22,350 nucleotides of DNA, taken from the IMG/VR virus record IMGVR_UViG_3300025141_000854, positions 1 through 22,350 of that record; one strand, given 5' to 3'. Shown piece after piece: positions 1,144 to 21,461 of the stretch (positions within the stretch are counted from its first letter, which is position 1; each line of letters begins with the position of its first letter). The stretch comes from a virus. The translations under genes were made by a program, and so were the position numbers. The notes under the pieces were generated by a model. That model did no database searches, had not been told where the DNA came from, and was given only the letters and a program-made list of their open reading frames with translations.

Positions 1144-1183
1144 AAAAAAATAACCATCAGAGAGAAAGTCACTGATGGTTATT
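1144..1183 (-). terminator. Intrinsic terminator, overlapping a promoter
   Basis: On the minus strand a perfect 11-bp stem (ATAACCATCAG at 1150-1160 pairing with 1172-1182) encloses an 11-base loop and is followed by seven T residues (1144-1150). It lies just downstream of the acidic-protein gene, whose transcript it should end. Its upstream arm shares bases 1181-1182 with the -10 box of the next promoter. Confidence 0.85.
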
Positions 1184-1209
1184 ATAATCGCTCGCTGTTA
1201 CTTTGTCAA
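1181..1209 (-). promoter_or_regulatory. Consensus sigma70-type promoter
   Basis: Minus strand: TTGACA (1204-1209), 17-base spacer, TATAAT (1181-1186); both boxes match the consensus exactly. It is squeezed between the stop of the acidic-protein gene (1211) and the terminator hairpin. The expected start, near 1174, falls inside the hairpin, so new transcripts would lack most of the upstream arm. It should drive the membrane protein and ClpP-like genes. Confidence 0.8.
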
Positions 1210-7760: not shown

Positions 7761-8011
7761 GGGGTGTTGTTGCCTCCGCTAATCATTTCAAAGTTCTCCA
7801 CCACTTCATCGATGTTAAACTTACCCTTGTAAAGCCGATAGGCTTTTACTGCTGCTCGAATTTCGTCGGTATTCAACCAACTGTTCTCGCGGTACTCTGA
7901 CCGCAGGTCGCGACGTTGATCCTTATAGGGTTCCATCGCCTCTTCAATTGCTGCCAATGAGCGAATATACTCCTTGACATACTTTTTCTTTTCTTCGTGT
8001 GAATTGGCCAC
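7757..8011 (-). CDS. Small helical protein, possibly DUF2312/GapR-like
   Basis: The likely product is 84 aa, from GTG at 8009-8011. This start is four bases after a strong AGGAGG (8016-8021), whereas an upstream in-frame TTG at 8044 overlaps the promoter region and is rejected. The protein is helical and charged: a first helix rich in Glu/Lys, a middle part (EPYKDQRRDLRSEYRENSW) and a final helix (TDEIRAAVKAYRLYK). The helix pair followed by an LRK-like tail recalls DUF2312/GapR-type DNA-binding proteins, but the similarity is only in layout. A promoter directly precedes it, and it is the first gene of the dUTPase-nuclease-methylase operon. Its place could suit a regulator or a nucleoid-type protein. 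Confidence 0.7.
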   Translation of the reverse strand: MANSHEEKKKYVKEYIRSLAAIEEAMEPYKDQRRDLRSEYRENSWLNTDEIRAAVKAYRLYKGKFNIDEVVENFEMISGGNNTP

Positions 8012-8034
8012 ACTGCCTCCTTTGTTACTTATAT

Positions 8035-8063
8035 AATATAACAAATTCTAGAGGGAATGTCAA
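8035..8063 (-). promoter_or_regulatory. Sigma70-type promoter for the dUTPase/nuclease/methylase operon
   Basis: Minus strand: TTGACA (8058-8063), 17-base spacer ending TGT, then TATATT (8035-8040). The expected start near 8028 gives a short leader that contains AGGAGG. It lies five bases from the stop of the 50-aa gene; no hairpin is seen here. The TGT-TATATT junction recurs at 19921-19974. Confidence 0.78.
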
Positions 8064-18936: not shown

Positions 18937-18965
18937 AATTTAAAATAATTCTTTTGTGTTGTCAA
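18937..18965 (-). promoter_or_regulatory. Second, upstream promoter-like site before the helicase
   Basis: Minus strand: TTGACA (18960-18965), 17-base spacer, TAAATT (18937-18942). It overlaps the end of the exonuclease gene and would be in tandem with the site at 18904-18931. Weaker than the others because the -10 is A+T-rich background. Confidence 0.4.
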
Positions 18966-19920
18966 GACATTCCCTGGTGATCTTATTTAAGTTCTCTTTA
19001 AGATCCTCCCAGTTTAATTCACCAAATCCATCTGCGCGCATCATACCAATGAGTTCGGTTTTATTAAATTCGCACTCAAAGTTTTCTATCGATTCTTCAA
19101 CATGCTGTTTAGATTGAAACGACATTTGTGGAGCATATAATTGCATCATCTTATAGTTGTGCGCGATTAACTTTTGGTTGTCGGCAACGTTCGAGAAAAA
19201 CTTTAAGTTACTATCAGCATCTTTGCAAAATTCTACAACTTCATCAATCGTATACGACTTCTCTTCACTAAGAAAATCAAGGCGTTTCTGAATTGTTTTA
19301 AACCCGGCACCCTTAACACCAGGAAGGTTGTCGGAAGCGTCTCCAATGATCGCTCTGGCGAGTGCCATATTGGTTGGGTGTACTCCTGTCTGCTCAATGA
19401 TGCGCTTTTGGTTTAGCAACTCGTTTTTAGTAGGCCGAAGCAGTACAGTTTCCTCGTTGCAAACCTGCATAAAATCTTTGTCATTAGAAATGATAATTTT
19501 TTGCCATCCTTTATAATAATCCATCTGCGTAATATATGCAATCACATCGTCAGCTTCAATTTCCGGAATCATAAACTGAATGATGGGCATGTTATTCATA
19601 TATTCAATAACACGACTTTGTTGCCACATCTTGTTCTGCAACTCTTCGTCATCAGTAAGGTTGTGATACGCTCGATTTAATCTAATCGGCTTCCTACCCT
19701 CTTTATAGTTTTTGTCTATGCTCTTTCGCTTTCTAGAGCCGTTAGGACCGTCCCATACCACTACGATCTGATCCGGTTTCGTCTCTCGGACGTGTCGCTG
19801 AAGGATTTTGATAAACCCTTTCAGGCCGCCGATGGGATCTCCATTAGAGGAAATCGAGGGGTCTACGATATACGCCCTCAAATATGCGTTTAACGCATCT
19901 ACAATTAATACTCGTTTCAT
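18940..19920 (-). CDS. 5'-3' exonuclease / flap nuclease (FEN family)
   Basis: This 326-aa protein belongs to the family of T4 RNase H and the Pol I 5' nuclease. Acidic metal ligands fall at the expected places: LIVDALN (Asp8), VVVWDG (Asp57), PEIEADDVI (119-127), SNDKDF (Asp147, Asp149) and GDASDN (Asp194, Asp197). It is followed by the H3TH motif LPGVKGAGFKT. It would remove RNA primers and flaps at the phage replication fork, which fits its place among helicase, recombinase and SSB. The ATG (19918-19920) comes directly after a terminator hairpin/promoter module; the AGG-type ribosome site is weak. No polymerase domain is attached, so it is a stand-alone nuclease. Confidence 0.92.
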   Translation of the reverse strand: MKRVLIVDALNAYLRAYIVDPSISSNGDPIGGLKGFIKILQRHVRETKPDQIVVVWDGPNGSRKRKSIDKNYKEGRKPIRLNRAYHNLTDDEELQNKMWQQSRVIEYMNNMPIIQFMIPEIEADDVIAYITQMDYYKGWQKIIISNDKDFMQVCNEETVLLRPTKNELLNQKRIIEQTGVHPTNMALARAIIGDASDNLPGVKGAGFKTIQKRLDFLSEEKSYTIDEVVEFCKDADSNLKFFSNVADNQKLIAHNYKMMQLYAPQMSFQSKQHVEESIENFECEFNKTELIGMMRADGFGELNWEDLKENLNKITRECLDNTKELF

Positions 19921-19922
19921 TT

Positions 19923-19965
19923 AAAAAGCCCTACCTGTTATATACAATATAACATGGCAGGGCTT
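19923..19965 (-). terminator. Intrinsic terminator, interlocked with a promoter
   Basis: On the minus strand AAGCCCT (59-65) and TGTTATA (48-54, as complement) pair with 26-32 and 36-42 (last two digits of 19900s), giving two 7-bp blocks around an imperfect middle and a five-base loop. A run of five T follows (19923-19927). It should end transcripts arriving from SSB, RecA and the lipoprotein. Confidence 0.72.
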
Positions 19966-19974
19966 AAATGTCAA
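19946..19974 (-). promoter_or_regulatory. Sigma70-type promoter for the exonuclease unit
   Basis: Minus strand: TTGACA (19969-19974), 17-base spacer ending TGT, TATATT (19946-19951). The expected start near 19939 falls in the downstream arm of the terminator stem, so transcripts from this promoter would lack the upstream arm and could not form the terminator. Confidence 0.78.
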
Positions 19975-19981
19975 GCAGTTT

Positions 19982-20302
19982 TTAGCGATATCTGCGGGCT
20001 GGTGGGTGTGGTCTGCCGCGGCCTTGGATGTATCTAACATGCGTATGCGGCTGTCGTGACAACATCTGGCGAGGCACCGTTCGCAAATCCCAATACCCGT
20101 GTACCCACACACCACGCGGAGTTCGGTGTCCCCTTACCCAGACCCATGCACGGACATTGACACTAACATTGTGCGTGTGGGGATGGGGGGTGTGACGCAC
20201 GACTGGTGGTGCGGGTGGTCGCTGACTCGGTGGAGGGGTGTGTGCGTGAACTGTGCAGCCACTCCCAATTAAAGCTATAAAAGCTATAGTGAATTTATTC
20301 AT
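19982..20302 (-). CDS. Small His/Pro-rich putative lipoprotein with WXXGXW-like repeats
   Basis: The 106-aa protein starts with MNKFTIAFIALIGSGC, a Lys, a hydrophobic stretch and a Cys at 16. It resembles a type II signal peptide, although the -3 position is Gly, not the usual Leu. A Pro/His-rich linker follows (about 20-45), then AWVWVRGHRTPRGVWVHGYW, which resembles the two-copy WXXGXW repeat of bacterial outer-membrane or periplasmic proteins. The tail is basic. The gene is much richer in G+C than its neighbours and encodes no known replication function, so it may have been picked up from a host. The ATG overlaps the recA end by 8 bases and has a plausible AAAGGA site. An outer-membrane spanin-like lipoprotein is an alternative for a Pro-rich lipoprotein in a phage, but no inner-membrane partner is seen. 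Confidence 0.65.
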   Translation of the reverse strand: MNKFTIAFIALIGSGCTVHAHTPPPSQRPPAPPVVRHTPHPHTHNVSVNVRAWVWVRGHRTPRGVWVHGYWDLRTVPRQMLSRQPHTHVRYIQGRGRPHPPARRYR

Positions 20303-21461
20303 TTTGTTTTCCTTTCTCTGCTGGTGCGGCTAATTCGTCCGGATCTTCATAAAAATCTTCTGCGCTTCCATCCCGACGATCAAATCTTTGAATAACCTCT
20401 TCATCCATTAGACGTATGACGTGCTCTCTAAATTCATTATCGGTTTTAATAATCTCGGTCCACTTTGAAGGCTGGAATTTCTTGGAGTATCCGTCTGCAG
20501 TTTCTAATGTATACCACGCACCCTTGGAAGTGAGACACTCGGATGTTTTAATAGCATCAAACCAACTCTCTTCGTCTCGGATACCAACTTCGTCAGTGCC
20601 CCACATAATACGGAAAGCACAATTTCTTCCTTGAGTTCCAAACCTAGACTTCTCCAGTCTAATCTTGACTTCGGATCCGATACGGAAACCTTTATCATCC
20701 ATCACAAACGCACTCTTAGCCTTGCGTCCGGTTAGCCAGATACGCAAAGAATAAGAATAGTGCATAGCTTTTCCGCCCGGTGTCATATAGGGCGTAGTCA
20801 TCGCTGTGATATGCGCCATAGGGCCGCTAGTAATGTTGGTCTTAAGCTGGTTAAGAACCAAGAAGGTTGCTTGCTTGTCTGCAATCGGGAGAGTAAGCTT
20901 TGACATTCCCTTCGCAAGGATGCGCGCCTTCATTGCCATCGAGGATTGAGGATTAAAGTCGCCCTCAACATCTGATACCGATGGAGTGAATGCTAGAGAG
21001 TCCCAAATCAACAACAGCTTTTCATCCGTTGCTGCCAGAAGTTCTTCAATCGTCTCCAATACAAACTCGACAGACGATGCCTGAACGTACATTAACCGCT
21101 CTAGGTCGCATCCTGCTGCCTCCAAAAAAGCAGGGTCGATGGCTGACTCGGAATCAAAATACACCACCAGCTTATCCTGTTTTTGGGCGTTCGCTGCAAT
21201 CTGTGCAGCCATGTAAGATTTGCCTGTGGAGGTGAGTCCTGCAATCTCTGTGACCTTACCAACAGGAATGCCTGCGTACTGTCCTTTACAGATAATACTA
21301 TCCAGCCAGCGGGAGCCTGTGGGTATCCACTCTTTGACTTCCGTAGGATTGTCTCCTGTCAGGTCGTGGGCCACGTTGCGGCCCGCTTTTTTATTTACCA
21401 AGGTCATGAGATCTTGCATAGATACACGACCAGCTTTAGTTTGTTTTGCCTTTCTCGGCAT
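20295..21461 (-). CDS. recA: RecA/UvsX-type recombinase
   Basis: The 388-aa protein has the RecA core. Walker A is GLTSTGKS (75-82), preceded by IPVGKVTEIA; VVYFDSESAIDP (99-110) corresponds to the catalytic Glu region and LLLIWDSL (149-156) is Walker B. FLVLNQLKTN and TPGGKAMHYSYSLRIWL follow, the loop 2 and C-terminal core of the family. It would form filaments on single-stranded DNA and promote strand exchange for recombination-dependent replication. The Walker A resembles phage UvsX-like forms more than the bacterial GPESSGKT. The C-terminus is acidic (about 370-388), as in bacterial RecA. ATG at 21459-21461. It follows the SSB with a hairpin in between. Confidence 0.92.
   Translation of the reverse strand: MPRKAKQTKAGRVSMQDLMTLVNKKAGRNVAHDLTGDNPTEVKEWIPTGSRWLDSIICKGQYAGIPVGKVTEIAGLTSTGKSYMAAQIAANAQKQDKLVVYFDSESAIDPAFLEAAGCDLERLMYVQASSVEFVLETIEELLAATDEKLLLIWDSLAFTPSVSDVEGDFNPQSSMAMKARILAKGMSKLTLPIADKQATFLVLNQLKTNITSGPMAHITAMTTPYMTPGGKAMHYSYSLRIWLTGRKAKSAFVMDDKGFRIGSEVKIRLEKSRFGTQGRNCAFRIMWGTDEVGIRDEESWFDAIKTSECLTSKGAWYTLETADGYSKKFQPSKWTEIIKTDNEFREHVIRLMDEEVIQRFDRRDGSAEDFYEDPDELAAPAEKGKQNE

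Follow-up and report, generated by a model that had tools for sequence, protein, structure and literature searches.

Gene Organization and Elements of the Exonuclease Module

The analyzed stretch of DNA, hereafter called the window, is an IMG/VR virus fragment of 22,350 bases from a marine phage. A gene for a 5'-3' exonuclease (Pfam PF02739/PF01367, 5_3_exonuc_N matched) is located on its minus strand at positions 18940–19920 as the first gene of the downstream block. It is preceded on the same strand by a small open reading frame of 106 amino acids (19982–20302) and, further upstream, by a gene for a RecA-like recombinase (20295–21461). The protein deduced from the small reading frame has a lipoprotein-like start and a His/Pro/Arg-rich body; its end is conserved in relatives, and a Pfam search with it gave no match. 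The RecA-like, exonuclease and DnaB-like helicase genes share one direction. Since the neighboring genes are co-directional, read-through from upstream is expected, and the RecA-like gene is its expected source.

From the stop of the small reading frame (19984–19982) to the exonuclease start codon 67 bases were counted, in agreement with the preliminary description, which had placed stop codon, promoter, terminator and start codon within about 65 bases. The minus-strand sequence of the whole exonuclease module is TTGACATTTAAGCCCTGCCATGTTATATTGTATATAACAGGTAGGGCTTTTTAAATG. From 5' to 3' it consists of TTGACA, a 17-nt spacer (TTTAAGCCCTGCCATGT), TATATT, the stretch GTATATAACAGGTAGGGCTTTTTAA and the ATG (19920–19918). 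The promoter scan placed the −35 element TTGACA at 19969–19974, 7 nt from the upstream stop codon, and the TG-extended −10 element TATATT at 19946–19951. With 11 of 12 matching positions, a 17-nt spacer and TG before the −10 element, the module contains a sigma70-type promoter (TTGACA, 16–18 nt, TATAAT, good match).

Folding of the same strand revealed a near-perfect, terminator-like hairpin of approximately 40 nt at 19926–19965 with a minimum free energy (MFE) of about −24 kcal/mol. Its outer 7-bp block (AAGCCCT/AGGGCTT) pairs 19965–19959 with 19932–19926, its inner 7-bp block (GTTATAT/ATATAAC) pairs 19953–19947 with 19943–19937, and CC/GG pairs connect both blocks to one hairpin. The 5' arm is the spacer between the −35 and −10 elements, the −10 element lies in the upper stem and apex, and the 3' arm is the leader of the exonuclease mRNA. 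A TTTTT tract (19923–19927) follows the 3' arm and overlaps the end of the outer arm. Thus, the stem of two 7-bp blocks with five T residues overlapping TTGACA-17-TATATT, noticed in the preliminary description, was found again on the minus strand. With its stable, GC-rich stem and a U-run immediately behind it in the coding direction, the module has the structure of an intrinsic terminator. On the plus strand just two T follow the same stem; consequently, this putative terminator is directional.

The transcription start predicted from the position of the −10 element (19938–19940) lies 6–7 nt past this element at about 19939, beyond the apex and, as expected before, in the inner downstream arm of the stem. 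Furthermore, the Shine-Dalgarno (SD) region AGGTAGGG (19930–19937) is located inside the 3' arm. In most relatives it reads AGGAGG; the SD of the window itself, AGGTAGG, is imperfect. The predicted occlusion of the SD by the 3' arm is a layer that the preliminary description had missed.

Conservation and Covariation in Related Phages

Relatives were collected by an exonuclease search of IMG/VR, which gave 80 loci, and the 77 with an intact start were examined. Approximately 58 of these 77 carry a promoter with spacer-leader pairing at the head of the exonuclease operon, many of the contigs being close relatives, so that such counts are not independent events. One of them (L019) was missed by a strict −10 filter and carries the module nevertheless; some relatives have no detectable module. 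The module lies 54–1450 nt upstream of the exonuclease start, 54 nt in the closest relatives, and elsewhere at least one small gene separates it from that start. At two loci (L020 and L116, the latter at G004 about 69754) an inserted small gene was observed, so that another gene now comes first behind the module. In the remaining coding-strand sequence of ten related contigs, the same pairing criterion yielded about 0.08 sites per 2.2 kb; the strongest sites in these contigs (−18 kcal/mol or below) were mostly the exonuclease modules themselves.

The modules fall into sequence families with the spacer and leader arms GCCCTGCC..GGTAGGGC, GCCCTCCTGATT..CAGGAGGG, AGCCTCCCGAT..ATCGGGAGG, CACCCCCCC..GGGGGGG and GCCCCCTCAA..TTGAGGGGG. 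Within the family of the window, pair 3 is G-T, G-C or T-A, pair 4 T-A, T-G or C-G, pair 7 C-G or G-C, and pair 8 G-C, A-T or G-T. This comparison is based mainly on modules abutting the exonuclease gene, which were located by position ahead of any threshold. In a swap test the module's own arms paired better than the arms of another family in 38 of 38 cases, with a mean gain of 5.5 kcal/mol, a result that is inflated because a pairing threshold was used in gathering the modules. The spacer-leader duplex had a mean of −18.3 kcal/mol in the modules; for 148 further promoters from these phages the mean was −5.7 kcal/mol. Base-pair-preserving changes keep the module design across dozens of related phages, and the sequence itself turns over.

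Most module members have T-runs of 3–6 after the stem. In some the run is interrupted or comprises only 3 T, and termination may therefore be weak in those members. Nearly all members have the SD in the 3' arm, and it is better conserved than the T-run; in most members the start codon follows it after roughly 5–12 nt.

A Second Layout and Other Promoters

The preliminary description had stated that the same design occurs twice in the window. Recurrence was observed, with a different layout. The promoter scan revealed TTGACA-17-TATAAT at 1181–1209 (minus strand), where a 35-nt terminator hairpin with T7 (about 1148–1183, minus strand) begins at the −10 end and leaves the SD outside; the exonuclease module has its predicted start beyond the apex and its SD inside the 3' arm. 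The start at 1181–1209 corresponds to position 9 of the 35 in the hairpin, so most of the 5' arm would be missing from the transcript of this promoter. In about 10 contigs including the window, the genes for an EVARRVA..RL protein and a MEW..FGY.TCK protein meet at a junction that carries an element of this kind, with the upstream stop 1–4 nt from the −35 element. The two junctions are 18.8 kb apart in the window and approximately 16 kb in two related contigs. From this spacing both appear to bound the same replication-gene block in this lineage.

Several other promoters were noticed. At 8010–8063 of the window (minus strand) a promoter TTGACA-17-TATATT (8035–8063) has a CCCTC in its spacer that forms pairs with the following gene's AGGAGG. 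It was rejected as a module: it has no T-run, and relatives, which seemingly keep the upper stem, do not keep the spacer arm. On L096 (G001:199001-203204) and the end of L095 about 10 strong promoters within 10 kb each precede a small gene; many carry TGCTATATT at the −10 element, and several combine CCCC in the spacer with GGGG just past the −10 element (ATAGGGGCAA). This cluster is a possible early region. Finally, L111 (G003, minus strand, offset 18517) contains a near-perfect inverted repeat (GCCTCTACTG/TATAGTAGAGGC) around a promoter −10 element without a T-run, possibly an operator.

Predicted RNA Folding and Proposed Mechanism

RNA from the module's own promoter is predicted to begin at position 26–28 of the approximately 40 in the hairpin in every exonuclease module listed. 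The mean MFE was −21.3 kcal/mol for the read-through RNA versus −3.2 kcal/mol for RNA starting after the −10 element. According to these predictions, RNA from the module promoter cannot refold the hairpin, and the SD would be hidden in the long RNA and exposed in the short one. Lacking the 5' arm, the RNA of the own promoter would neither terminate nor hide the SD.

We consider it probable that the exonuclease module acts as a read-through-proof promoter. RNA polymerase coming from recA would transcribe spacer, −10 element and leader into an RNA hairpin followed by U5, at which most complexes would terminate. In transcripts passing the terminator the exonuclease SD would stay paired, and translation would be poor. 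Initiation at the embedded sigma70-type promoter would start past the apex of the hairpin and yield RNA without the 5' arm. The level of the exonuclease and of the replication genes behind it would then depend on their own promoter, shielded from transcription that comes from upstream. This reading builds on the observed architecture, conservation, covariation and recurrence and on the weak folding predicted for the short RNA; we infer that the promoter is active, that the hairpin terminates transcription and occludes the SD, and that insulation is the function under selection.

Alternative Explanations

The module might act by SD occlusion alone in the manner of T4 gene e, with an incidental T-run, an untranslated long RNA and an embedded promoter that provides a translatable short RNA. 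The nearly universal SD in the 3' arm and the short T-runs in families b and c would fit such a function, and T4 genes e and soc fold likewise (PMC3014915; gene e was refolded here). However, the loci L047 and L052 retain a G7/C7 stem and a T-tract with the SD outside the stem, the module at 1181–1209 has T7 with the SD outside the hairpin, and in the window, L025, L036 and L229 T5–T7 directly follow a GC-rich stem. We therefore regard SD occlusion as the only function as unlikely.

Ordinary crowding is a further explanation: in a compact phage genome with just 67 nt between upstream stop and exonuclease start, a terminator and a promoter could overlap by chance or compactness. The preliminary description, which had argued for selection over chance, had proposed a scan of the genome and its relatives for such overlaps. 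In 10 related contigs and the window, promoters of at least 11/12 starting inside terminators of −13 kcal/mol or stronger were counted and compared with rotated positions. The 13 starts observed, which include orthologous repeats of two junctions, exceed the 0.86 expected from rotation; the highest count among 300 rotations was 4. A looser criterion (promoter of at least 10/12, terminator of −10 kcal/mol) was rejected, as it gave 16 versus 7 expected and the stricter thresholds separate clearly. Over all 155 promoters spacer-leader pairing was only slightly enriched; thus, the design is confined to a few junctions and does not characterize these promoters in general. Against crowding also speak the constant placement of the start in the hairpin, the layout kept during sequence turnover and the T4 arrangement. 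In stretches of T4 (NC_000866) subjected to the same scan, terminators end approximately 50–60 nt upstream of the start without a promoter inside, and none of the strong promoters (10/12 or better) has its start within a terminator. Crowding is very unlikely, and selection over chance is supported by the orthologous position, the covarying arms, the swap and rotation tests and the control scan of IMG/VR described below.

Even less probable is that the inverted repeat is an operator, with a phage or host repressor bound to the dyad around the −10 element. The dyad is near-perfect and centered on this element, and repression is common among early phage promoters. In a site bound as DNA, though, the sequence would be conserved, and G-T states would disrupt the dyad; here the dyad sequences vary among families, and compensatory changes including G-T intermediates keep the pairing. 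Because the sequence varies while pairing is kept, the repressor operator was rejected. The hairpin promoter of the kind used by N4 virion RNA polymerase was dismissed as well, as the apex varies in sequence and the module has a complete TTGACA/TATAAT promoter.

Relation to Known Systems and Wider Recurrence

The read-through-proof promoter proposed here resembles the SD-occluding leader hairpins of T4 genes e, soc, 49 and I-TevI (Uzan and Miller 2010, PMC3014915). Long early transcripts of gene e are silenced approximately 100-fold, and late transcripts without the 5' arm are translated, a mechanism that has been demonstrated in T4 (PMC3014915). When the gene e leader was refolded here, the loop contained the late promoter and the 3' arm the AGGAGG. 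In the exonuclease module, too, the promoter lies within the hairpin and the SD in the 3' arm; the long RNA would hide the SD, and the RNA of the local promoter is predicted to lack the 5' arm. In contrast to the gene e type, which has a late gp55 promoter (TATAAATA) and no terminator-making T-run, the module combines a sigma70-type TTGACA/TATATT promoter with a T-run, and unlike the T4 hairpins it serves a replication exonuclease gene.

Promoter early stem-loops (PeSLs) of T4-type phages are described, in papers citing the original work, as composites of a promoter and a terminator-like stem-loop between genes (PMC4503421, PMC5931544, PMC3950731). As far as these accounts go, the exonuclease module is likewise a promoter, putatively an early one, and a stem-loop in one composite intergenic motif; unlike PeSLs, promoter and terminator are interleaved, positionally fixed and present about twice per genome stretch. 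The source studies are reportedly Arbiol 2010 (GBE 2:140) and Comeau 2014 (GBE 6:1611). The T4 layout seen in our scan, a separate stem-loop upstream of the promoter, differs from that of the module. The module family of the window matched only at exonuclease loci, with a looser pattern also before other genes, and the search for its further copies gave no sign of shuffling. With intrinsic (Rho-independent) terminators the module shares a GC-rich stem and T-run at the end of the upstream gene; unlike in ordinary ones, the stem doubles as promoter spacer, −10 element and SD of the next gene.

The pattern TTGAC-N5-CCTCC-N8-TATAAT-N8..25-GGAGG was found in IMG/VR at 62 loci, many of them related to one another; with GGAGG placed in the spacer as a non-complementary control, 3 loci matched. 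At most of the 62 loci the pairing continues into a long stem, at many of them with a T-run behind it, and the genes that follow include several unrelated ones. L151 and L229 are striking among them; in L229 a stem of approximately 21 bp is followed by T7. A CTCCC-spacer scan proved a poor control, since it mixed real modules (L229, L216) with an unrelated weak-fold promoter family. Short N-terminal pieces of the genes behind other modules gave no match above cut-off in a Pfam search, and a DNA-level search of phage records with the module region gave no match. Tentatively, interleaved promoter-terminator-SD elements of approximately 45 nt may represent a widespread, convergently recurring class of phage regulators, through which a gene would be expressible only from its own promoter, with read-through stopped and leaked RNA silenced. 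The parts are known separately, from the SD-occluding hairpins of T4 e and I-TevI and from the T4 PeSL cassettes. Interleaving all three appears to be new, provisionally so, as no description of this layout was found in the literature searched, which covered PeSLs through citing papers only.

In the exonuclease module a promoter, a terminator and a putative translational lock are packed into approximately 45 bases, whose fold was retained by evolution and whose sequence was replaced. If the proposed function is true, such a module would offer synthetic biology a compact leak-proof promoter part. It would also provide a searchable signature of operon boundaries in uncultured phages and explain how genes in dense one-strand phage operons are timed independently.
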